This document shows, piece after piece, positions 6,839 through 37,798 of a stretch of 38,142 nt of DNA. The notes beneath the pieces are model-generated. The model saw only the letters and a program-made list of their open reading frames with translations. It was not told the DNA's origin and ran no database searches. Origin of the DNA: Flavobacteriales bacterium (GTDB lineage: Bacteria; Bacteroidota; Bacteroidia; UBA10329); NCBI GenBank assembly GCA_021739695.1, contig JAIPBM010000035.1, positions 1-38,142 of the forward strand, given 5' to 3'. The translations under genes and the position numbers were made by a program. Position 1 is the stretch's first letter; every line of letters begins with the position of its first letter.

Positions 6839-8790
6839 ATCGTTGACCCGATTTCCATCGCCAGTTTTCTTCTAACCTTTAGCAGGTTATTCAAACGGTC
6901 CATGTTGAGTAACAGTTGATCTTCTTCAGATTGTTTCAACAGATCGCGCGTGTCGTTGATCATCTTCTCCAGTTTGCGCAGTTTAAGCACGTTCAGCGAT
7001 GAAAGAATAGAACGTTTCAGCACATCTTCTTCTCTGGTCACAACGATGTTGTGTTCTTTCCAGCGTTCGCTTACAGTATGCGGTTGCGCAAAGAAATTGA
7101 CTGCGAGTCCAGAAATTTCCGGGTTTGGATGATTGATGAAATGCTGCTCAGTAGGAATCTTTTCTTCTTCAAGCATTTTGGCAAACTCATCAAAAACCAA
7201 TTTGAAAAGCGTGTTTTCAAACGTGATCTCATCTTCCAGAATCTCGGTCACCACAAAATCAACCACATTCACTTCTTCTTGATCGATCACCTTTTCTCCT
7301 GCTTCATCCCACACATCAAAATGAATGTGCTTCTCGCTGTAAAGCATCAGGATTCGGATGATGTCGCGTTCCTGAAATTCGGCATCGCGCTTTTTTAGTT
7401 CCTGATTGGTTCTCCGAACAATCTGTGGTTCTTCGCTCGGTTCAGAATCGTGAGTGGAAATTCCATCGCGTTTCTGCTTGTCGTTCCAGTTTTTTCTTCG
7501 ATTGCGGTTCAGTTCCATCATCAGAACTTCCTCATCCATATCCATAATGCTGCTGCACTGGCGCACGTAAAGGTTTCTGGTTATCGGATCTGGAATGAGC
7601 GAAATGGAACTGATGATGTCTTTGATCAGTCCAGCGGTTCTGACTGGATCGCCTTTGGTTTCGCCCACCAGAAGTTTGGTTTTGAACTGAATGAAATCGT
7701 TGGAATTAGCATCGATGAAACTGGTGAGTTCGTCTCCGCCCATTTTTTTAGAGAACGAATCGGGATCTTCTCCATCTGGAAAAAGAACCGTTCGCACGTT
7801 CATACCTTCTTCCAACACCAGATCAATTCCTCGGAAGGATGCTTTTATTCCTGCATCATCACCATCGTACATGATGGTGAGGTTGTTGGTATAGCGCTTG
7901 ATAAGGCGAATTTGCTCAACCGTGAGGCTGGTTCCAGAACTGGCCACCACGTTGTGGATGCCTGCTTGATAAAGCGAAACCACATCTGTGTAGCCTTCTA
8001 CCAAAAAGCAATTGTCTTTTTTAATGATCTCGCTTTTTGCCTGGTAGATGCCGTAAACGATGTTGCTCTTGTGGTAAACATCGGTTTCTGGACTGTTGAT
8101 GTATTTGGCAACCTTTTTATCGTTGCGCAGCGTGCGTCCGCCAAAGGCAATGACACGGCCCGAAAGGTTATGTATCGGAAACATGACACGACCCTTGAAT
8201 CGGTCGAGCAGCTTTCCTTCGCGTTCGAGACAAAGACCTGAATCAATCAGAAATTTGCGATTGTATTGTTCTTCGAGTGCTTTGTTTCCGAACGAATCGT
8301 AACGGTCGAAACAGTAGCCGAGTTCAAATTTCTCGATTGTTTCCTGTGTGAATCCGCGCTCTTTGAAATAGCTGAGGCCGATGGCCTGACCTTCGTCTGT
8401 TTTTAGCAGATTGGAAGTGAAGTTGCGTTGCGCAAAAGCCAAAACGAGATAAAGACTTTCGCGCTCGTTCTGTTCGGCAACCTGCTCGTCTGTCTGTTGC
8501 TCTTCTTCAATTTCAATGTTGTATTTCTTGGCCAGATAACGCAGCGCTTCGGGGTAGGTGAGCTGTTCGTGGTCCATGATGAAATTGACCGAATTGCCGC
8601 CTTTGCCACAACCGAAGCATTTGTAAATTCCTTTGGGTGGCGAAACGCTGAACGAAGGCGTTTTCTCGTTATGGAAAGGGCAGTTTCCCCAAAGGTTGGT
8701 GCCTTTCTTTTTGAGGTGCACGAAATCGCCTACAACCTCCTCAACACGGGCGGTTTCGAATATTTGCGCTATGGTTTCCTGTGGGATCAA
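6829..8790 (-). CDS. dnaG: DNA primase
   Basis: DnaG synthesises RNA primers for replication. The 653-aa protein has the N-terminal CHC2 zinc finger (C37, H40, C58, C61; NCPFHNEKTPSF and CFGCGKGG), the primase core with RFKGRVMFPI and VIAFGGR, and a TOPRIM domain with catalytic Glu in LVEGYTDVVSL and the acidic MYDGDDAG. The C-terminal third, rich in charged helices, is the expected DnaB-interaction region. The conserved N-terminus (ETIAQIFETARVEEVVGDFV) begins right after TTG at 8790 and no in-frame ATG exists before it, so TTG is the start. A -7-like TATCTTTA lies on the minus strand at 8806-8799, only 7 bases before the start. Confidence 0.95.
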   Translation of the reverse strand: MIPQETIAQIFETARVEEVVGDFVHLKKKGTNLWGNCPFHNEKTPSFSVSPPKGIYKCFGCGKGGNSVNFIMDHEQLTYPEALRYLAKKYNIEIEEEQQTDEQVAEQNERESLYLVLAFAQRNFTSNLLKTDEGQAIGLSYFKERGFTQETIEKFELGYCFDRYDSFGNKALEEQYNRKFLIDSGLCLEREGKLLDRFKGRVMFPIHNLSGRVIAFGGRTLRNDKKVAKYINSPETDVYHKSNIVYGIYQAKSEIIKKDNCFLVEGYTDVVSLYQAGIHNVVASSGTSLTVEQIRLIKRYTNNLTIMYDGDDAGIKASFRGIDLVLEEGMNVRTVLFPDGEDPDSFSKKMGGDELTSFIDANSNDFIQFKTKLLVGETKGDPVRTAGLIKDIISSISLIPDPITRNLYVRQCSSIMDMDEEVLMMELNRNRRKNWNDKQKRDGISTHDSEPSEEPQIVRRTNQELKKRDAEFQERDIIRILMLYSEKHIHFDVWDEAGEKVIDQEEVNVVDFVVTEILEDEITFENTLFKLVFDEFAKMLEEEKIPTEQHFINHPNPEISGLAVNFFAQPHTVSERWKEHNIVVTREEDVLKRSILSSLNVLKLRKLEKMINDTRDLLKQSEEDQLLLNMDRLNNLLKVRRKLAMEIGSTILK

Positions 8791-8845
8791 AAGGGCGTTA
8801 AAGATACGCTTGTAAAACCGATTTGCGATGTAGGCCGCGAGGGCC

Positions 8846-8965
8846 GCGTTAGGGATGGAAGCGGCATCCTTTTTTCTGAGCTCTGCTTTCTACTGCGTTC
8901 AGTCATTGGCCTGAAAAAAGATATAGCGCACAGCCCGACCCCGATTTTTCATCGGGGGAACGCCC
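8846..8965 (+). repeat. 120-nt structured intergenic repeat, copy A
   Basis: This element recurs in the same orientation and at the same length at 35451-35570; by hand count about 107 of 120 positions agree, and 11 of the 13 differences fall in a central 35-nt stretch. Termini GCGTT and AACGC are complementary. Inside are three hairpins: GGATG/CATCC, a TTTTTTC/GAAAAAA arm, and CCCCGAT/ATCGGGG. The invariant core GATATAGCGCACAGCCCGAC lies between the last two. It sits between divergent dnaG and ftsX. It resembles a repeat I associate with many Flavobacteriia genomes and might be the Rfam Flavo-1 RNA, which I cannot check here. Confidence 0.85.
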
Positions 8966-9021
8966 TAAGTGCAGAAGACTTAAATTGCGTTAAACGCATG
9001 GTGGCCGCGGTTCAAAAAGTG

Positions 9022-9029
9022 TAATTTCG
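9022..9029 (+). promoter_or_regulatory. -7 element for the ftsX operon
   Basis: TAATTTCG fits TAnnTTTG with one change (C for T), 15 bases before the ftsX ATG. I see no convincing -33 TTG at the normal distance. Confidence 0.45.
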
Positions 9030-9044
9030 TCCGACTTCGAAAAG

Positions 9045-9923
9045 ATGGCAAGCGCAGAGGAAAAAGCACATAAGAAACAGATATGGTCGAGTAATGTGAC
9101 GGCCGTTGTGAGTATATCGCTGGTGTTGTTTATGCTTGGTTTGCTGGGGCTTACACTGTTGTATGCAAACGCGCTTTCGGGCTACGTAAAGGAAAACATC
9201 GGGTTTACCATTTACATGAAGGATGATGCGAAGGAGGTTGACATTCTTCAGTTTCAGAAGTTTTTGGATGCATCGGACTTTGTAAGAAGCACGGATTACA
9301 TTTCTCAAGATGAAGCTGCCGATCAGTTGAAGGAAGCGTTGGGTGAGGATTTTGTCGGTTTTATGGGCTACAATCCGCTGAAGCGTTCGATTGATGTGAA
9401 GATCAAAGCTGATTTTGCCAACGAAGAAGGAATCGTGGACATTAAATCGGATCTGCTGAAAAATCCGATGATCTTTGAAATTGATTATCCGGTTGATCTG
9501 ATTCGTGTAATTAATAGAAACGTGCGCAAAGCGGGAATTGTGATCCTTGTTTTTTGCGGACTTCTTTCGTTGATAGCCATTTCGTTGATCAACAATAACA
9601 TCAGGCTTTCCGTTTATTCGAAACGATTCCTGATCAATTCGATGAAGTTGGTAGGAGCCACGCAATCGTTTATCCGCAAGCCTTTTTTGGTTGAAGGTGT
9701 TCTGCGCGGAGCTGTTGGCGCAGTGGTGGCCAATGTGCTGTTGGCCGCTGTGATCTATTTAGCAAGCCAGAATATTCCTGAACTTTTTGGATTGGAAGAT
9801 ATCGAGATCGTGTTTACGCTTTTTGGTGCCGTGCTGGCGCTTGGGCTTCTCATCTCGTTCTTAAGCACGACATTTGCCGTTAGAAAATATCTGCGCCTGA
9901 ACGCAGACGAACTATATTATTGA
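9045..9923 (+). CDS. ftsX: Cell division protein FtsX (permease-like component)
   Basis: FtsX is the membrane partner of the ATPase FtsE; together they control periplasmic peptidoglycan hydrolases at the septum. The 292-aa protein has a cytoplasmic N-terminus, a first membrane helix at about residues 20-42, a large periplasmic domain (about 45-165, containing FTIYMKDDAKEVD), and three C-terminal helices with the conserved MKLVGATQSFIRKPFLVEG loop. ftsE is not adjacent, the usual situation in Bacteroidota. It leads a tight operon: the next ATG is 2 bases after its stop. Confidence 0.93.
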   Translation: MASAEEKAHKKQIWSSNVTAVVSISLVLFMLGLLGLTLLYANALSGYVKENIGFTIYMKDDAKEVDILQFQKFLDASDFVRSTDYISQDEAADQLKEALGEDFVGFMGYNPLKRSIDVKIKADFANEEGIVDIKSDLLKNPMIFEIDYPVDLIRVINRNVRKAGIVILVFCGLLSLIAISLINNNIRLSVYSKRFLINSMKLVGATQSFIRKPFLVEGVLRGAVGAVVANVLLAAVIYLASQNIPELFGLEDIEIVFTLFGAVLALGLLISFLSTTFAVRKYLRLNADELYY

Positions 9924-9925
9924 AC

Positions 9926-10168
9926 ATGAGCGAACAAGGAAACAACGAGAAGGAATTCGCCTTCGGAAAGGAGAATTACATTATTACCATCGTAGGAATG
10001 GTTTTTATTCTGGTGGGTTTTGTGCTGATGGCAGGAGGCGGATCTGATGACCCGAATGTGTTCAGCAAAGAGATATTCAGTACAACCAGAATTACCGTGG
10101 CACCGTTGGTTGTGTTGGCGGGTTTTGCGCTGGAGATCATCGGAATCATGTATCGCGCTAAGTCGTAA
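9926..10168 (+). CDS. DUF3098 small membrane protein
   Basis: This 80-aa protein has two predicted membrane helices (about residues 20-37 and 57-75) separated by a GGGSDDPNVFSKEIFSTTRI loop. FGKENYI at the start and the GSDDPNVF loop are the marks of DUF3098, found between ftsX and uppP across Bacteroidota. I prefer ATG at 9926, two bases after the ftsX stop, over the TTG that overlaps ftsX. The function is unknown; the position suggests a role linked to FtsX or to envelope synthesis. Confidence 0.85.
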   Translation: MSEQGNNEKEFAFGKENYIITIVGMVFILVGFVLMAGGGSDDPNVFSKEIFSTTRITVAPLVVLAGFALEIIGIMYRAKS

Positions 10169-10174
10169 TCGGGA

Positions 10175-10969
10175 ATGGATTTTTGGGAAGCCCTGATCTT
10201 GGGCATTGTACAAGGCCTGACGGAATTTCTTCCTGTAAGCAGCAGCGGGCATCTTGAAATTGGAAAGGTTCTGTTGGGAGATAAGAGCCTTCCGGAAGAA
10301 AGTCTGCTTTTTACGGTTGTCGTACACGCAGCTACATCACTCAGCACCATTGTCGTTTTTAGAAAAGATATTCTCGAAATTCTGAAAGGTTTGTTCCAAT
10401 TCAAATGGAACGAGCAAACGCAGTTTTCGCTGAAGATCATTGTTTCGATGATTCCCGCAGCCATTATCGGAGTGCTATTCAATGATCAAATTGAAGCACT
10501 GTTCAGCAAGCAGATTCTGTTGGTTGGAGCCATGCTGATCATTACTGGTCTATTGCTTTTTCTAGCTGATCGCGCAAAACGGACTGAAAAGCAGGTTGGT
10601 TTCAGTCAAGCCTTGATCATTGGAATTTCGCAGGCAATTGCCATTCTTCCAGGAATCAGTCGGTCTGGAGCAACTATTTCTACTTCGGTCCTTTTAGGAA
10701 TTGATCGCGAAAAAGCTGCTAGATTTTCCTTCTTGATGGTAGTTCCACTCATTTTGGGCAAGATGGCCAAGGATGTGATGGATGGAAATATTTCGTCAGA
10801 AATGACCCATGCCATGCCGCTGCTGGTTGGTTTTCTGGCTGCGTTTTTCTCAGGACTTGTGGCCTGTACTTGGATGATCTCGTTGGTTAAGAAAAGTCAG
10901 CTTCGTTATTTCTCATACTACTGTTTCGTGGTCGGATTCGGTGCCATTCTCGCTACACTGATTCTATAA
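10175..10969 (+). CDS. uppP: Undecaprenyl-diphosphatase (BacA family)
   Basis: UppP removes a phosphate from undecaprenyl diphosphate so that the lipid carrier can be reused for peptidoglycan and O-antigen synthesis. The 264-aa integral membrane protein has the two active-site motifs GLTEFLPVSSSGHL (E17) and LPGISRSGATIS, with about eight hydrophobic helices. It starts 6 bases after DUF3098 and ends 2 bases before truB, so it is an internal operon gene. Its length and motifs are normal. Confidence 0.96.
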   Translation: MDFWEALILGIVQGLTEFLPVSSSGHLEIGKVLLGDKSLPEESLLFTVVVHAATSLSTIVVFRKDILEILKGLFQFKWNEQTQFSLKIIVSMIPAAIIGVLFNDQIEALFSKQILLVGAMLIITGLLLFLADRAKRTEKQVGFSQALIIGISQAIAILPGISRSGATISTSVLLGIDREKAARFSFLMVVPLILGKMAKDVMDGNISSEMTHAMPLLVGFLAAFFSGLVACTWMISLVKKSQLRYFSYYCFVVGFGAILATLIL

Positions 10970-25438: not shown

Positions 25439-25457
25439 GGAATACTAGAATAAATCG

Positions 25458-25492
25458 AAAAGGGCGAATCTCAACTGAGATTCGCCCTTTTT
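25458..25492. terminator. Bidirectional intrinsic terminator
   Basis: A perfect 15-bp stem, AAAAGGGCGAATCTC (25458-25472) with GAGATTCGCCCTTTT (25477-25491), has an AACT loop and T-tracts on both strands. It lies between the lipoprotein gene and the convergent DUF2064 gene and touches the stop codon of the latter. Confidence 0.93.
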
Positions 25493-26085
25493 CATTCTGG
25501 AAAATTCAGATTGGAATGTTTCAGATCATCCAAGTTGTCGAGGTCTGATAATTCAGAAAGTAAGCTGTAGCTCAGATTCTTTTCTTCGATGTCGTTGATC
25601 GTTTCCTGAAGCACCGAATCCGTGCTCCACGTTTTTCCTTCGAATAGAAACGGGCGCAGTTCCTTCATTCCAATAAGGTAATAACCGCCATCCTGAGCTG
25701 GGCCAATACAAACATCTTTGTCGTTCAGTGCCGCAAAAGCACCTTTAATAATGTCGGAGGTAAGCGCTGGGCAATCGCTTCCAATGATTGCAGCCTTGGT
25801 TGCTCCCAGAGCAAAAACCTGCTCGAAGGCATTTTTCATCCTCTCTCCCAACGAATCTCCTTCTTGCACAAACTTGTTGAACTTATCGTCATCCCACGCA
25901 TCTGCTGCAATCTCATCCGAATAGAACACATTTCGAACACAATCAGTTTCCAATGCCGCTTTTCGCGTGATTTCCAACAGCTTGAGATACACGTCCAGTG
26001 CCCGTTCATTGCCAATGCTCGCAGCCAATCGCGTCTTCACTTTTCCAAGCACAGGATTCTTCACGAAAATGATCAGGTGATACAT
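25492..26085 (-). CDS. DUF2064 / TIGR04282 glycosyltransferase-like protein
   Basis: The 197-aa protein begins YHLIIFVKNPVLGKVKTRLA, the signature of this small GT-A-like family, followed by GSDCPALTSDII and PAQDGGYYLIGM, motifs shared with nucleotidyltransferases such as CofC and MobA. Family annotation is by fold only; a nucleotide-sugar or related transfer is likely but no substrate is known. ATG at 26085 starts the conserved strand; the open frame up to 26259 is not conserved and would overlap the ceramidase gene. The genes around it do not suggest a pathway. Confidence 0.82.
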   Translation of the reverse strand: MYHLIIFVKNPVLGKVKTRLAASIGNERALDVYLKLLEITRKAALETDCVRNVFYSDEIAADAWDDDKFNKFVQEGDSLGERMKNAFEQVFALGATKAAIIGSDCPALTSDIIKGAFAALNDKDVCIGPAQDGGYYLIGMKELRPFLFEGKTWSTDSVLQETINDIEEKNLSYSLLSELSDLDNLDDLKHSNLNFPE

Positions 26086-32975: not shown

Positions 32976-35417
32976 ATGTCTTCTATCATCAAAACTGCTA
33001 CTTGCTATCATTGCAATGACGAATGTGTTGACGAAACCATTCTTCTTGATGACCATACCTTCTGTTGTAATGGTTGTAGCACTGTTTATCAGTTGCTTCA
33101 AGATGTTGGGTTGGATGATGCCTACGCCAATGGGCCACTCGGCATAAGGCCAGATGCGGCAAAAGGGCAGGAATTGGCCTATTTGGACAATGAAGAAGTG
33201 CGCGAAAGTCTCTTGGATTTCTCGGATGGCAACATGGCGCGCATCACGTTTGAGTTGCCGGCCATTCATTGCAGCGCTTGTGTTTACTTGCTAGAGCGCT
33301 TGGAAAAGTTGAACGCAGGTGTGAAAAACTGTGAGGTCAATTTTCCTAAGAAACGCGCCAATATTCTATTTGATCAAAAGGAGATTTCGCTCAAGGAGCT
33401 GGTCGTATTGCTTCATTCCATCGGTTATGCGCCAAATCTCAACTTGGCCAAATCGTCTAAGGCAGAAGAGAAACCTTCTACAGATAGAGACTTACTGTAC
33501 AAGATAGGCGTGGCCGGATTCTGTTTTGGGAATATCATGCTGCTCAGTTTTCCTGAATATCTGATCGGAGATCACGTGTTGGAATCGAAGTGGTCGAACT
33601 TGTTCAACTTCTTGAATTTGGCTTTAGCGTTTCCTGTTCTGCTTTATGCGGGGCGCGATTACCTGCTTTCGGCCTATAAGGGACTGAAAGTGGGCCATGT
33701 GAACATGGATGTTCCTGTTTCCATTGGTATTCTCACCATTTTCGGGCGCAGTGCTTTTGACATTCTTTCGGGCGCTGGACCTGGTTTTCTCGATTCCCTG
33801 GCGGGTTTCGTTTTCTTTCTACTCATTGGTAAGTGGTATCAGGCCAAAACCTATTCGGGGCTTTCGTTCGAGCGCGATTACAAGTCGTTTTTCCCCATTG
33901 CGGTCAATAGAATTGGTGCGGATGGTGAAGTGAATGCCATCATGATCAAGCATCTTTTGAAAGGTGATGAGATTCAGATCCATAATGATGAGTTGATTCC
34001 TTGCGATTGCGAATTGCTTTCTGCCGATGCTTCCATTGATTACAGTTTTGTGACCGGAGAAGCCGCGCCATCATCTAAATCTATTGGCAACCGCATTTAT
34101 GCAGGCGGGAAAAACCGTGGCTCGGTGATCCGATTGCGTGTGGTAAAACCCGTTTCATCCAGTTATCTCACTTCGCTATGGAACAGTTCTGACCAAAGCG
34201 AAAAGGCAGAGAAACCGCCATTGCTGAAAATATCTGACACCATCGCTTCGTGGTTCAGTGCGGCCATTCTTTCCATTGCTGCCATCACAGCCATTTATTG
34301 GTTCATCGTTGATCCGAGCAATTGGCTGAACACAACAACATCGGTCTTGATCATTGCGTGCCCGTGTGCGTTGGCGTTGAGCATCCCGTTCACCTATGGT
34401 TCTATGCTGCGGCATTTTGGTCGCCACGGGTTTTTTGTGCGTTCGGTTGAGGCAGTTGCTAAGCTAGGACAGGTCAATCATGTGGTTTTTGACAAGACAG
34501 GAACCATTACCATCAGGCAAAAAGGCAGCGTAAATTTTGCTGGAAATGATCTGAGTGAAGATCATTTGGAAGCGTTGGTTAACGTAGCCCGACAATCGCT
34601 GCATCCGCTAAGCAAAACCTTTGCAGCTGCGTATCCAAAAATGAAAGTAGTTCCTGTCATCGGTTTTACGGAGCATGCGGGTGTTGGCATTTTTGGAATG
34701 GTGAATGGTGTGCTGGTAGAGTTGAAAAACCCGAACCGATTGGATGAAAATGAACTCAAACTGTTCGATTCGTGGCAGACAGAACATCATGGAATGGGAA
34801 GAACAGCTGTGCTGATAAACGGACATCTTTGGGCGCGTATTGATTTTACCACCAGCTATCGGCACGGACTGAAACAGATCGTGCATCACATTCAGGAAGA
34901 GAACGAGCTTTCCTTGCTTTCGGGCGATAATAACGCAGAAGCAACGGCTCTGAGCAACACGCTTATTGCTGGGTTTGACAGCAAGAACATGTTCTTTGAA
35001 ATGGACCCACACGATAAACGGGAGTGGGTGGAACAAAAGCAGATAGACGGAACACAGAAAGTGCTGATGGTGGGAGACGGACTGAACGATGCGGGTGCTT
35101 TGAAAGAAGCGCATTTCGGTATTTCCATTGCAGAGGACAATAGTCAGTTTACGCCTGCTTCGGATGGTATTCTAACTGCCGAATCGTTTGAGAAATTGCC
35201 ACAGTTCATTGCCTTGGCGCGCCAATCGCGGAACGTGGTTTTGGGCGCATTTGCCTTATCGCTGCTTTATAATGTGGTTGGTGTTTCGGTGGCGGTTCAA
35301 GGAAATCTGTCGCCTGTGATGGCTGCCATTCTGATGCCGCTGAGCTCGGTGACCATTGTGCTTTTTACTACCATAAGTACAGCGGTGTTGGCCAAAGCCA
35401 AATTGCGAAAAGCGTAG
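32976..35417 (+). CDS. Heavy-metal P1B-type ATPase, FixI/CcoI-like
   Basis: FixI/CcoI supplies copper for cbb3-type cytochrome oxidase assembly. The 813-aa protein has the N-terminal cysteine module CYHCNDEC (C10, C13, C17) and CCNGC (C30, C31, C34), an HMA domain with HCSACVYLLE (C99, C102), membrane helices, the TGEAAPSS actuator loop, the membrane CPC (C462-C464), the phosphorylated DKTGT (D506), the HPLS motif and GDGLND. The N-terminal double cysteine module is specific to the CcoI branch rather than CopA. Normally ccoS and the oxidase genes ccoNOP are nearby; here neither follows. An FNR box precedes it. Confidence 0.88.
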   Translation: MSSIIKTATCYHCNDECVDETILLDDHTFCCNGCSTVYQLLQDVGLDDAYANGPLGIRPDAAKGQELAYLDNEEVRESLLDFSDGNMARITFELPAIHCSACVYLLERLEKLNAGVKNCEVNFPKKRANILFDQKEISLKELVVLLHSIGYAPNLNLAKSSKAEEKPSTDRDLLYKIGVAGFCFGNIMLLSFPEYLIGDHVLESKWSNLFNFLNLALAFPVLLYAGRDYLLSAYKGLKVGHVNMDVPVSIGILTIFGRSAFDILSGAGPGFLDSLAGFVFFLLIGKWYQAKTYSGLSFERDYKSFFPIAVNRIGADGEVNAIMIKHLLKGDEIQIHNDELIPCDCELLSADASIDYSFVTGEAAPSSKSIGNRIYAGGKNRGSVIRLRVVKPVSSSYLTSLWNSSDQSEKAEKPPLLKISDTIASWFSAAILSIAAITAIYWFIVDPSNWLNTTTSVLIIACPCALALSIPFTYGSMLRHFGRHGFFVRSVEAVAKLGQVNHVVFDKTGTITIRQKGSVNFAGNDLSEDHLEALVNVARQSLHPLSKTFAAAYPKMKVVPVIGFTEHAGVGIFGMVNGVLVELKNPNRLDENELKLFDSWQTEHHGMGRTAVLINGHLWARIDFTTSYRHGLKQIVHHIQEENELSLLSGDNNAEATALSNTLIAGFDSKNMFFEMDPHDKREWVEQKQIDGTQKVLMVGDGLNDAGALKEAHFGISIAEDNSQFTPASDGILTAESFEKLPQFIALARQSRNVVLGAFALSLLYNVVGVSVAVQGNLSPVMAAILMPLSSVTIVLFTTISTAVLAKAKLRKA

Positions 35418-35450
35418 TTCCTGTAACGCACTGCGGTTGGCAGTTTGCGC

Positions 35451-35570
35451 GCGTTAGGGATGGAAGCGGCATCCTTTTTTCTGAACTGTGTCTTGGACTG
35501 CGCTGAGGCATTGGTCAGAAAAAAGATATAGCGCACAGCCCGACCCCGATCTTTCATCGGGGAAACGCCC
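35451..35570 (+). repeat. 120-nt structured intergenic repeat, copy B
   Basis: Same length and orientation as copy A at 8846-8965. The first 34 bases are identical and the differences are concentrated in the centre. The internal TTTTTTCTGA/TCAGAAAAAA arm is a perfect 10-bp stem here, longer than in copy A, where only 7 bp match. CCCCGAT/ATCGGGG differs only in the loop. It lies 33 bases after fixI and 116 bases before the OmpA-fusion gene, both plus strand. Confidence 0.85.
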
Positions 35571-35647
35571 AGAAACGATTGTTTGTCTTGTAGAAATGTC
35601 TCAAAATCTTCACTGCGCACAATAGCGCGATGGTTGCGCGAGTTATA

Positions 35648-35671
35648 GTGGTCATTCAGTTTAACGACCAC
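35648..35671 (+). promoter_or_regulatory. Inverted repeat upstream of the OmpA-fusion gene
   Basis: GTGGTC (35648-35653) and GACCAC (35666-35671) form a 6-bp inverted repeat with a 12-base spacer, ending 15 bases before the ATG at 35687. It could be an mRNA hairpin or an operator. Several GCGC palindromes lie just before it. Confidence 0.3.
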
Positions 35672-35686
35672 GCTTAATTCGCTGCC

Positions 35687-37798
35687 ATGAAAAAGTTCCT
35701 CTCCTTCTTTTTGTTCGTATCGAGCACTGCTTTTGGTCAGAATACGGTGGCACTTTCGGTGCATTTCGATAAGGACAGCGATGTGCCGCACATGCCCGAA
35801 ATGGCCATGCTGAATGATATTTCGGAGAGTGAGAATGCGAAGAATCTGCGCATTTCGGTGGTTGGGCATACCGATTCGAGAGGTTCTGTTGAGCACAATC
35901 GCGACCTATCGAAGCGCAGGACATGGTCGGTGATCAACCATCTTCTGCTGTCGGGTTTTAGGCCATACAATATCGTTTTTGAGTATCAGGGCGAGGAGTG
36001 CACGGATGGCGAGCAAGACGAACAGACCTTGGCTGAGAATAGGCGCGTGGATATTCTGATCTCGAATGTTGGCCCGCTGGAAGAGGTTGGTTTTGCGGGA
36101 ATCTATGGCGAAGAAAGCTTTGATAGGCCGTTGCCAGGTGTGGTATCGGATGCGGAGGTTTTTGTGATCAATGCGGAAGAGAGCAATTGCATTGAAACGG
36201 CCAGCGGCACCCTGATCGATATTCCGCCCATGGCGTTTGTGGATGCCTATGGCCGACCGATAAGTGGTGAGGTGGAAGTTGCTTACAAGGAGTACAACGA
36301 TCCATTCTCCATTTTTTTGAGCGGCATTACCATGAAGTACCAAGCGGGCGGCATGGTGGAGAATTTCGAATCGGCAGGAATGTTCAGCCTGAGCGCTAGT
36401 CAAAGGAAAAGACCGGTGGAGTTACGTGCCGATAAGCCTGTGAGCATGGATTTTGTGTCTGCAAGTTCGGAGGATGATTTCGACTTTTTCTTTCTCGACC
36501 CCAACACAAGCGCATGGAATAATATTGGGCAGGCATCCATCAGGCAAGACAATGCTGCGCTGAAGGAGGAAGTGCAGAACATATCGGAAGCAGTGGTCAG
36601 TTACCTGGCGCAAACAGATTATATGGCGCCTTCCAAGGCGAGTAGAACCACGCTGGAAGAGCATTTTCTGAATGTGGAATACATGCACGCCCGACCCATT
36701 GCCAGTTACTATCGATTTCTGAGGAAAGGAAATGAAAAGGAAAGCCATCAATTTAAGCGGCTTTGGAACAAGGAGGCCAATTTTGAAACCCGACTGCTGC
36801 CAAAGCGAAGAAAGAATGACGCGGACGCCATTTACTTTAAGGTGCAACGGAAATTGGGTAGCGGCTACAATAAGGAATGGACACAATTCAACTACCATAC
36901 TTGGGAATATGATGGCGCGCTTGGCCGAAAGCAGTTGAAGGAAATGCTGGGGAGAAAGCGGTTTCATAATCTGCGGGTGAGATATGATGCGGCCAACCAA
37001 ACCGTGAGTCTGGAACTGAAGAACCTCGATTCCATCGCCCACATTCCTGTGAAGAAGGTGACGATTGAGAATGCTTCTGCCGATCTTAAGAAACGGATGT
37101 GGGCAGAGTTTGCCCCGGCCTACCAAAAGGCGCGTTTGCGCAATCTCAACCGTTCATTTGAACTGCGCTACCGCATTTACAAACGATCGTTGGATAAACA
37201 GGAAAAGGCCATTCAGAGCAATGCCGATAGGTATGACAAGGACGCGCAACGCAATTACCAAAAGAGCCTTCGCGCAGCGTGGAAGGAGAGCAGGCCGCTG
37301 ATGACCGAAGCTGAGCGGATGATGGATATGGGAACATGGATGGCCTACACCACAGACCGATCCAACATGTTGCAGGAGTATTACATCAAACAGAAGAAAG
37401 GCGAATCGGTGGTGCGGAGTCTGGTGGTGGGGCGAATGGGTATTTACAATTGCGACCGCATCATAGAACTCAAGAATCCGCAAGTGGTCAGCCCAAGGTT
37501 TGTATTGGCAGATGGCAAAGCGGTAGACTGGAAATCGGCCTATGTGTTTGACGAAAAATTGAATGGTGTGATCATGTACGATAGGGCTGCTGGCAACACC
37601 ATTACCTTAAGTCCCAAAAAGCTGAAAACCATTATTGTTACCGATGAGGATGGCAGAACCTATAACCTGAATGAGAGCGAAGCCATTGCCATGAATAAGA
37701 GCAAAGTGGCACAACGCATCATGCATGTTTCTGAGTTTGACCATACGCCCAATTCGTTGGATGAAATGCGCGAGATGTTGGGCTCGGCAGGAGAATGA
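35687..37798 (+). CDS. Secreted protein with N-terminal OmpA-like domain and large uncharacterised C-terminal region
   Basis: The 703-aa protein has a signal peptide (MKKFLSFFLFVSSTAFGQ) and then an OmpA-like peptidoglycan-binding domain at about residues 22-127 (VVGHTDSRGS, NRDLSKRR and AENRRVDI). Next is a beta-rich block of about 200 residues with SGTLIDIPPMAFVDAYGRPI, SGEVEVAYKEYNDP, FLSGITMKY and ESAGMFSL, a pattern seen in large Bacteroidota envelope proteins. The last 350 residues are highly charged and mostly helical (rich in K, R, E) and unlike any family I know. OmpA domains usually sit at the C-terminus. A peptidoglycan-anchored envelope role is inferred. ATG at 35687 gives the complete signal peptide. 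Confidence 0.75.
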   Translation: MKKFLSFFLFVSSTAFGQNTVALSVHFDKDSDVPHMPEMAMLNDISESENAKNLRISVVGHTDSRGSVEHNRDLSKRRTWSVINHLLLSGFRPYNIVFEYQGEECTDGEQDEQTLAENRRVDILISNVGPLEEVGFAGIYGEESFDRPLPGVVSDAEVFVINAEESNCIETASGTLIDIPPMAFVDAYGRPISGEVEVAYKEYNDPFSIFLSGITMKYQAGGMVENFESAGMFSLSASQRKRPVELRADKPVSMDFVSASSEDDFDFFFLDPNTSAWNNIGQASIRQDNAALKEEVQNISEAVVSYLAQTDYMAPSKASRTTLEEHFLNVEYMHARPIASYYRFLRKGNEKESHQFKRLWNKEANFETRLLPKRRKNDADAIYFKVQRKLGSGYNKEWTQFNYHTWEYDGALGRKQLKEMLGRKRFHNLRVRYDAANQTVSLELKNLDSIAHIPVKKVTIENASADLKKRMWAEFAPAYQKARLRNLNRSFELRYRIYKRSLDKQEKAIQSNADRYDKDAQRNYQKSLRAAWKESRPLMTEAERMMDMGTWMAYTTDRSNMLQEYYIKQKKGESVVRSLVVGRMGIYNCDRIIELKNPQVVSPRFVLADGKAVDWKSAYVFDEKLNGVIMYDRAAGNTITLSPKKLKTIIVTDEDGRTYNLNESEAIAMNKSKVAQRIMHVSEFDHTPNSLDEMREMLGSAGE

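Follow-up and report, generated by a model that had tools for sequence, protein, structure and literature searches.

In three genomes of one genus, nearly all examined copies of Flavo-1 (Rfam RF01705), a family filed as RNA, are surrounded by zones in which G exceeds C on the element's own strand, in genes of either direction, and this polar zone is a new observation. The starting point was a stretch of 38,142 nucleotides from a Flavobacteriales bacterium, here called the window, which holds two Flavo-1 copies. Flavo-1 has stood as a computed "RNA" without known function since 2010, and the polar zone gives a handle on its role. Our leading explanation, which we hold at slightly less than even confidence, is that Flavo-1 is a dispersed element working mainly as DNA, whose folded + strand would engage a host process on one strand, with loss of C and a G-over-C zone as the outcome.

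The available portions of the literature say little about the family. Weinberg et al. 2010 enter Flavo-1 in a table in the part consulted (PMC2864571), and the corresponding part of a 2022 review lists it without a function. In the accessible portions of the literature on such repeats or on skew, mostly exclusive of subscription papers and with PMC12306157 included, nothing concerns the surroundings of Flavo-1.

Two Flavo-1 copies in the window

An initial annotation, made from the letters alone, had described two 120-nt same-strand elements about 89% identical. Copy A (8846-8965) and copy B (35451-35570) do agree at 107 of 120 positions (89.2%; 13 mismatches, no gap), both on the + strand. 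The next-best ungapped match to copy A elsewhere on the window's + strand reaches only 52/120, so the A/B pair is far beyond chance. The changes had been placed mainly in a central arm, and the 38-nt arm (A 8876-8913, B 35481-35518) holds 11 of the 13 mismatches; the other two fall in the loop of the 3' hairpin and on the base directly after that hairpin. The GCGTT/AACGC ends and the core GATATAGCGCACAGCCCGAC, reported as kept, are present in both copies. The suggestion that the elements might be Flavo-1 was borne out by a covariance-model search (cmscan), in which copy A scored 49.3 bits and copy B 54.9 bits against an RF01705 gathering score of 42; membership of both copies is certain for practical purposes. 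The features of the window are as follows.

8846..8965, + strand: Flavo-1 copy A, full element; RF01705 49.3 bits (gathering 42); intergenic between dnaG(-) and ftsX(+)
8846..8850, + strand: copy A closing stem P1, 5' side (GCGTT); pairs with 8959-8963; covaries among 54 copies
8852..8875, + strand: copy A long stem P2, 5' side
8876..8913, + strand: copy A variable apical arm (degenerate REP-like hairpin); 11 of 13 mismatches; arms differ in other copies
8914..8936, + strand: copy A long stem P2, 3' side
8939..8957, + strand: copy A 3' hairpin P3 (CCCCGAT-TTTTC-ATCGGGG); mostly past the end of the Rfam match at 8944
8959..8963, + strand: copy A closing stem P1, 3' side (AACGC)
35451..35570, + strand: Flavo-1 copy B, full element; RF01705 54.9 bits; intergenic between a heavy-metal P-type ATPase gene and an OmpA-domain gene
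35457..35480, + strand: copy B stem P2, 5' side
35481..35518, + strand: copy B variable apical arm
35519..35541, + strand: copy B stem P2, 3' side
approx. 7400..10400, no strand assigned: G>C zone at 4-fold sites of the + strand around copy A; window track maximum at 8900, +0.48; extent from the genome average
approx. 34000..37000, no strand assigned: G>C zone at 4-fold sites of the + strand around copy B; second peak at 35500, +0.46; extent from the genome average

The gap between dnaG and ftsX that holds copy A is 254 bp long. The ATPase gene beside copy B is probably ccoI, a name taken from its neighbours in relatives. As dnaG and ftsX are separate in relatives, and the sequence past the ATPase gene differs from that of the window's genome in the five relatives where it is readable, both window copies sit where gene order changed. 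Elsewhere in the window, a sub-threshold Rfam match to MicX at 25447-25586 (31 bits against a cut-off of 75) is most likely due to chance.

Fold of the element

Base pairs were tabulated over 54 of 60 copies from the window's own genus, which could be anchored without gaps; four copies without the 3' anchor (one from the window's genome, G000, and three from G005), one without the tail, and copy L026 were left out. Every copy was counted as one, and the pair counts are inflated by relatedness. Comparison of these copies supports well a + strand fold made up of a closing stem, a long stem whose A·G mismatches are conserved and which bears a swappable apical hairpin, and a 3' hairpin. The "three hairpins" of the initial annotation stand as regards the 3' hairpin; the rest is replaced by the closing stem and a single long mismatched stem carrying the variable arm.

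Many compensatory changes across the 54 copies support the earlier idea of selection on a fold. The closing stem occurs as GCGTT/AACGC, GCGTG/CACGC and GCGCT/AGCGC, its innermost pair being T-A in 33 copies and G-C in 17, and the next pair T-A in 50 and C-G in 2. Pairs of the long stem vary in the same manner (G-C 40/A-T 11; G-C 53/T-A 1; T-A 43/T-G 5/C-G 3/A-T 2), as do further pairs of that stem (G-C 36/T-A 14; G-C 52/A-T 2). Internal mismatches are conserved like pairs: A·G in 54/54 twice, G·A in 53/54 twice and C·A in 54/54. One internal mismatch itself covaries (A·G 46, G·A 7, G·G 1, never A·A), and this A·G/G·A exchange without A·A fits a real non-canonical pair.

The 76-position Rfam match takes in neither the 3' side of the closing stem nor most of the 3' hairpin. 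The apical arm varies from copy to copy and, read by eye, is often a REP-like hairpin; this variability accounts for the concentration there of the differences between A and B. In one counted copy, the T/A arm gives way to a G/C arm. Single-sequence folding is weak evidence for the structure: copy B folds better than its shuffles (z -3.9), and copy A no better than shuffles (z -0.8).

Distribution of Flavo-1

The genome of the window, G000 (4.24 Mb, 53 contigs, 98.5% complete), contains 27 Flavo-1 matches at E<=0.001 on both strands, and 24 exceed the gathering score. Further copies thus exist genome-wide, and as the A/B pair is 2 of these 27, the recent copying proposed at first is not needed to account for it. 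Matches were found in 16 of the 29 genomes searched, G000 included. Within its own genus, G001 has 24, G004 25 and G008 11, four other genomes have 2 to 6, and G007 gave no match. At least one match was found in 166 of 173 genomes of another genus, that of G028, with counts per genome capped at 25, and none in the remaining seven; an even draw of the phylum Bacteroidota gave Flavo-1 in 60 of 392 genomes, where, as in every search over more than 40 genomes, stricter filters and capped scoring were used and a zero means none found. The control genomes gave 0/14.

An exact 24-base piece of the local Flavo-1 subtype is present in 36 named stretches, with carriers that include Flavobacterium, Chryseobacterium, Epilithonimonas, Mesonia, Winogradskyella, Hufsiella and unclassified MAGs. 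Searches of plasmids with copy A and of phages with copy B gave no match, in collections from which records near the window's own genome were possibly left out. The family looks dispensable, patchy and old.

The polar G-over-C zone

The zone emerged from exploration of G000, and tests in G001 and in other taxa followed; gene calls came from a simple longest-ORF rule. Read in the element's orientation, third codon positions near all 27 G000 copies have an excess of G over C. At 4-fold sites within 150 bp of G000 copies, the G/C skew is 0.40 in genes on the element's strand and 0.49 in genes on the other strand, falling to 0.14 and 0.03, respectively, at 1.2-1.5 kb. The composition of the zone is G 0.356 vs. 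0.251 and C 0.143 vs. 0.213. In the longer G000 contexts, all 16 copies are positive within 700 bp (mean 0.354), 15 on the left and 16 on the right. At 68 control intergenic points, the mean absolute skew is 0.111 and the two sides share a sign in only 30. For 6 of the 16 copies, none of the 68 controls reaches the observed asymmetry; for 4 of the 16, 11 to 23 controls do.

The sign of the zone belongs to the element. It flips between oppositely oriented G000 copies lying 2.9 kb and 5.5 kb apart, and less cleanly in a third such pair (contig C8). A G004 gene located between opposite copies runs through 0.70, 0.47, 0.24, -0.21, -0.61 and -0.50 along its length, and the orthologue in G008, which has a single copy at the 3' end, through 0.20, 0.58, -0.04, 0.29, 0.00 and -0.20. 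Since the sign follows the element in both gene directions, replication strand and gene direction do not explain the zone; replication strand was rejected as its cause in G000 on the flips between neighbouring copies. Arm length does not correlate with skew. REP-like hairpins away from Flavo-1, considered as a skew control, number three, too few for the purpose.

We regard it as very improbable that the zone arises artificially from gene calling or from replication strand. The simple gene calls would allow it, and the plain GC skew of the window has no peaks at the copies. At 4-fold sites, however, the two highest peaks of the 38-kb window fall at 8900 (+0.48) and 35500 (+0.46), at copies A and B, and the signal appears in both gene directions and both flanks, decays with distance, changes sign within a few kb, and recurs in G001 and in other taxa.

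The zone and strand bias in other genomes

Positive copies number 27/27 in G000, 19/20 in G004 and 19/20 in G001 (mean 0.17), together 65/67; G008 gave 7/10, and G022, from another family, 5/6. The third-position analysis was restricted to loci with enough sites (18/20 in G004, 13/20 in G028). Among the 36 named stretches, four that are possibly own-genus (near values 0.75, 0.64, 0.35 and 0.09) were set aside and one had too few sites. The 31 stretches from other taxa were positive within 700 bp in 24 cases (mean 0.151, Wilcoxon p=0.0003), several coming from one genome and some copies being shared by descent, so that not all are independent. Farther out, the counts were 19/32 at 700-1500 bp, 18/32 at 1.5-3 kb and 12/30 beyond 3 kb. 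In the genus of G028 (12/20 in G028, 19/30 in four others) and at 22 loci, 21 of them from family f24 (14/22 positive, p=0.09), the zone is weak or missing.

Two complete genomes of a second genus show a bias on the chromosome scale. Among the matches listed, the + strand of Flavo-1 lies on the G-poor strand in 35 of 44 in G147 and 39 of 50 in G178 (Fisher p about 2e-4 and 1e-4), with skew taken from 20 samples per genome. A half-chromosome split among the matches listed was reached by 21 of 1000 permutations in G070 and by 424 of 1000 in G161, which therefore shows no such split; the matches listed for the four genomes are 44/52, 50/58, 23/27 and 33/38. Provided that the G-rich strand is the leading strand, the folded strand avoids the lagging-strand template, as one would expect for a hairpin in DNA. 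Because its sign is the reverse of that of the local zone, the chromosome-scale bias is probably a separate effect.

Orientation and transcription

With crude ORF calls, the 27 G000 copies lie relative to neighbouring ORFs as ++ 9, -+ 9, -- 7 and +- 2. Two candidate roles were not supported: a cis-regulatory RNA, for want of a consistent sense orientation among the 27 copies (crude ORF calls) and with an antisense position at purM-purN, and an intrinsic terminator, with only 2 of the 27 copies between convergent ORFs on the same calls.

In the broader form of the RNA reading, Flavo-1 would be a structured RNA, a small RNA or UTR element, made from the + strand, and the zone would reflect transcription in the + direction through both flanks. 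The Rfam type is sRNA, and the covariation includes G-U type wobbles on the + strand. The consulted part of a Flavobacterium psychrophilum transcriptome (PMC9723704) offers something to each side: several 5' transcribed regions coincide with hits, yet hits occur indistinctly sense or antisense to transcribed regions, and many lie outside them. We consider this reading unlikely, given copies in any orientation to ORFs (crude calls), the conserved antisense position in the purM-purN operon, and a G000 zone about equally strong over genes opposing the element.

Mobility, rearrangement and conservation

A REP/RAYT identity was likewise not supported, as the partner Y1 transposase was not found in G000: PF01797 has no match in this 98.5% complete genome, and is present in 5 of 9 genomes of its genus. 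No target-site duplication was readable at the loci examined, and no autonomous partner was found, Y1_Tnp alone being sought. Some copies elsewhere are positional orthologues.

The copy at G000:C7:56230 shares its left flank with one G004 copy and its right flank with a second, equally oriented G004 copy 14 kb from the first, and the 14-kb segment between G004:C49:50749 and 64567 is absent at this single G000 copy. Such mixed flanks suggest recombination between copies, with the segment lost or gained. Comparison of G000:C1:186663 (L007) with G004:C33 reveals an inverted block of genes, one edge of which is marked by a Flavo-1 copy. At the ends of G008 contigs C2, C34 and C62 (L114, L115, L119), three copies are cut at the same 5' point by an identical sequence of at least 116 bases that runs off the contig ends. 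It has no other match in the G008 assembly and is possibly an insertion sequence targeting Flavo-1.

The genus of G028 carries Flavo-1 between purM and purN, genes named by Pfam AIRS_C and Formyl_trans_N on gene fragments, in the orientation opposite to both. The best-ranking 50 loci out of 173 genomes comprise 33 with Flavo-1 and 17 without, the latter with no recognisable remnant; full versus empty here is not a frequency, gain and loss are not told apart, and the exact ends of the element vary. Over the 33 loci, the 49-nt core differs by 3.7% on average, staying at 2.7-4.0% however diverged the genomes are; copies decayed past the motif limits would escape detection, an ascertainment that favours intact copies. 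The 4-fold sites of purM-purN differ by 10% to 62% (mean 39.7%) and codon positions 1+2 by 7.1%, and 16 G028 copies including the purM-purN one (of 20 fetched) differ among themselves by 22.8%. The low difference of the core relative to 4-fold sites and sibling copies points to purifying selection rather than homogenisation, and from these comparisons the purM-purN copy looks to be under purifying selection and not homogenised with its siblings. At the same site (L153-L182), different species carry unrelated apical hairpins on an unchanged core, a pattern that resembles an exchange of arms among copies. On the purN side (L154-L173), Flavo-1 is often adjoined by another palindrome, GAGCCTTGTCAAGG...CCTTGACAAGGC, which looks conserved.

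The element and the origin of the zone

In dnaG, beside copy A, the + strand of codons 1-450 lost 61 C and gained 5 in the G000 lineage; for codons 500-653, 7 were lost and 6 gained. The losses in the near part went to T (39), G (12) and A (10). With each of seven genomes taken as the focal one, the net G-over-C shift in this near part is largest in G000 at +57, and is +23 in G008, +17 in G003, +6 in G002 and +2 in G006, and -43 in G001 and -45 in G004, which both lack the element there; such large shifts without the element mean that they have other causes too. The shift in ftsX is small and common to G004, also without the element. In ccoI, next to copy B, there is no loss of C peculiar to G000. 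Skew without the element occurs in ftsX of G004 and in ccoI of G008, and purM-purN loci with and without Flavo-1 have similar skew (33 v 17, p=0.59).

Zones that are rare in the background and centred on the element favour a causal role. The ccoI result, together with G004 ftsX and G008 ccoI, favours older or independent zones, or lost copies. Either the element produces the asymmetry, or it occupies places where one is already present.

The second possibility belongs to an explanation that we consider marginally less likely again than the RNA reading: Flavo-1 would be a selfish, REP-like mobile element whose insertion is oriented by a pre-existing strand asymmetry, such as R-loops or exposed single strands. 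Patchy copies, empty sites without remnants, the altered gene order around both window copies compared with relatives, skew in some relatives without the element, and ccoI without lineage-specific change are all as such an element would leave them. Against this, none of the 68 controls reaches the asymmetry of 6 of the 16 copies, the part of dnaG close to the copy changed in the G000 lineage and the distant part did not, and the conservation at purM-purN is unexpected for a selfish copy. G000 also has no Y1 transposase match, and no target duplication was established.

Proposed mechanism

Under the DNA reading that we prefer, the + strand of Flavo-1 would fold when single-stranded. A host process acting on one strand, either nicking of the hairpin or cruciform with long-patch resynthesis or use as a priming or restart site, would keep about 1 kb of the + strand exposed on either side, and cytosines on the exposed strand would be lost over time, giving rise to the G-over-C zone. 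Action as DNA rather than RNA, the exposure of the + strand, the enzyme and the causing of the zone by the element are all parts that we infer. The most specific form of the proposal, that an element filed as RNA is a DNA element making its surroundings mutate asymmetrically through a folded + strand that recruits a strand-specific process, is put forward more tentatively than the general one. If it is true, Flavo-1 copies leave a polar mutation footprint, and footprints without the element mark lost copies. More broadly, the observations suggest that mutation bias in bacteria may be determined locally by small intergenic hairpins, in which case codon usage and skew-based maps close to such repeats would be affected.

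Comparison with known systems

The window copies resemble Rfam Flavo-1 (RF01705) in passing the gathering score, in the same long stem with internal mismatches and in their occurrence in Bacteroidota. In contrast to the 76-position model, the own-genus element is larger, with a covarying closing stem GCGTT/AACGC, whose 3' side is outside the model, and a 3' hairpin; its apical arms are often REP-like. Hairpins for single-strand initiation or primosome assembly function as folded single-stranded DNA and are strand-polar, and by analogy Flavo-1 would likewise act as a polar folded DNA strand. REP elements, as described in the consulted part of PMC3733652, have a GTAG- or CGTC-type tag beside the hairpin. 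Like REP/RAYT (Y1/HUH) elements, Flavo-1 is dispersed, intergenic, palindromic and strand-polar; unlike them, it is longer and has conserved internal mismatches, in a genome with no Y1_Tnp match.
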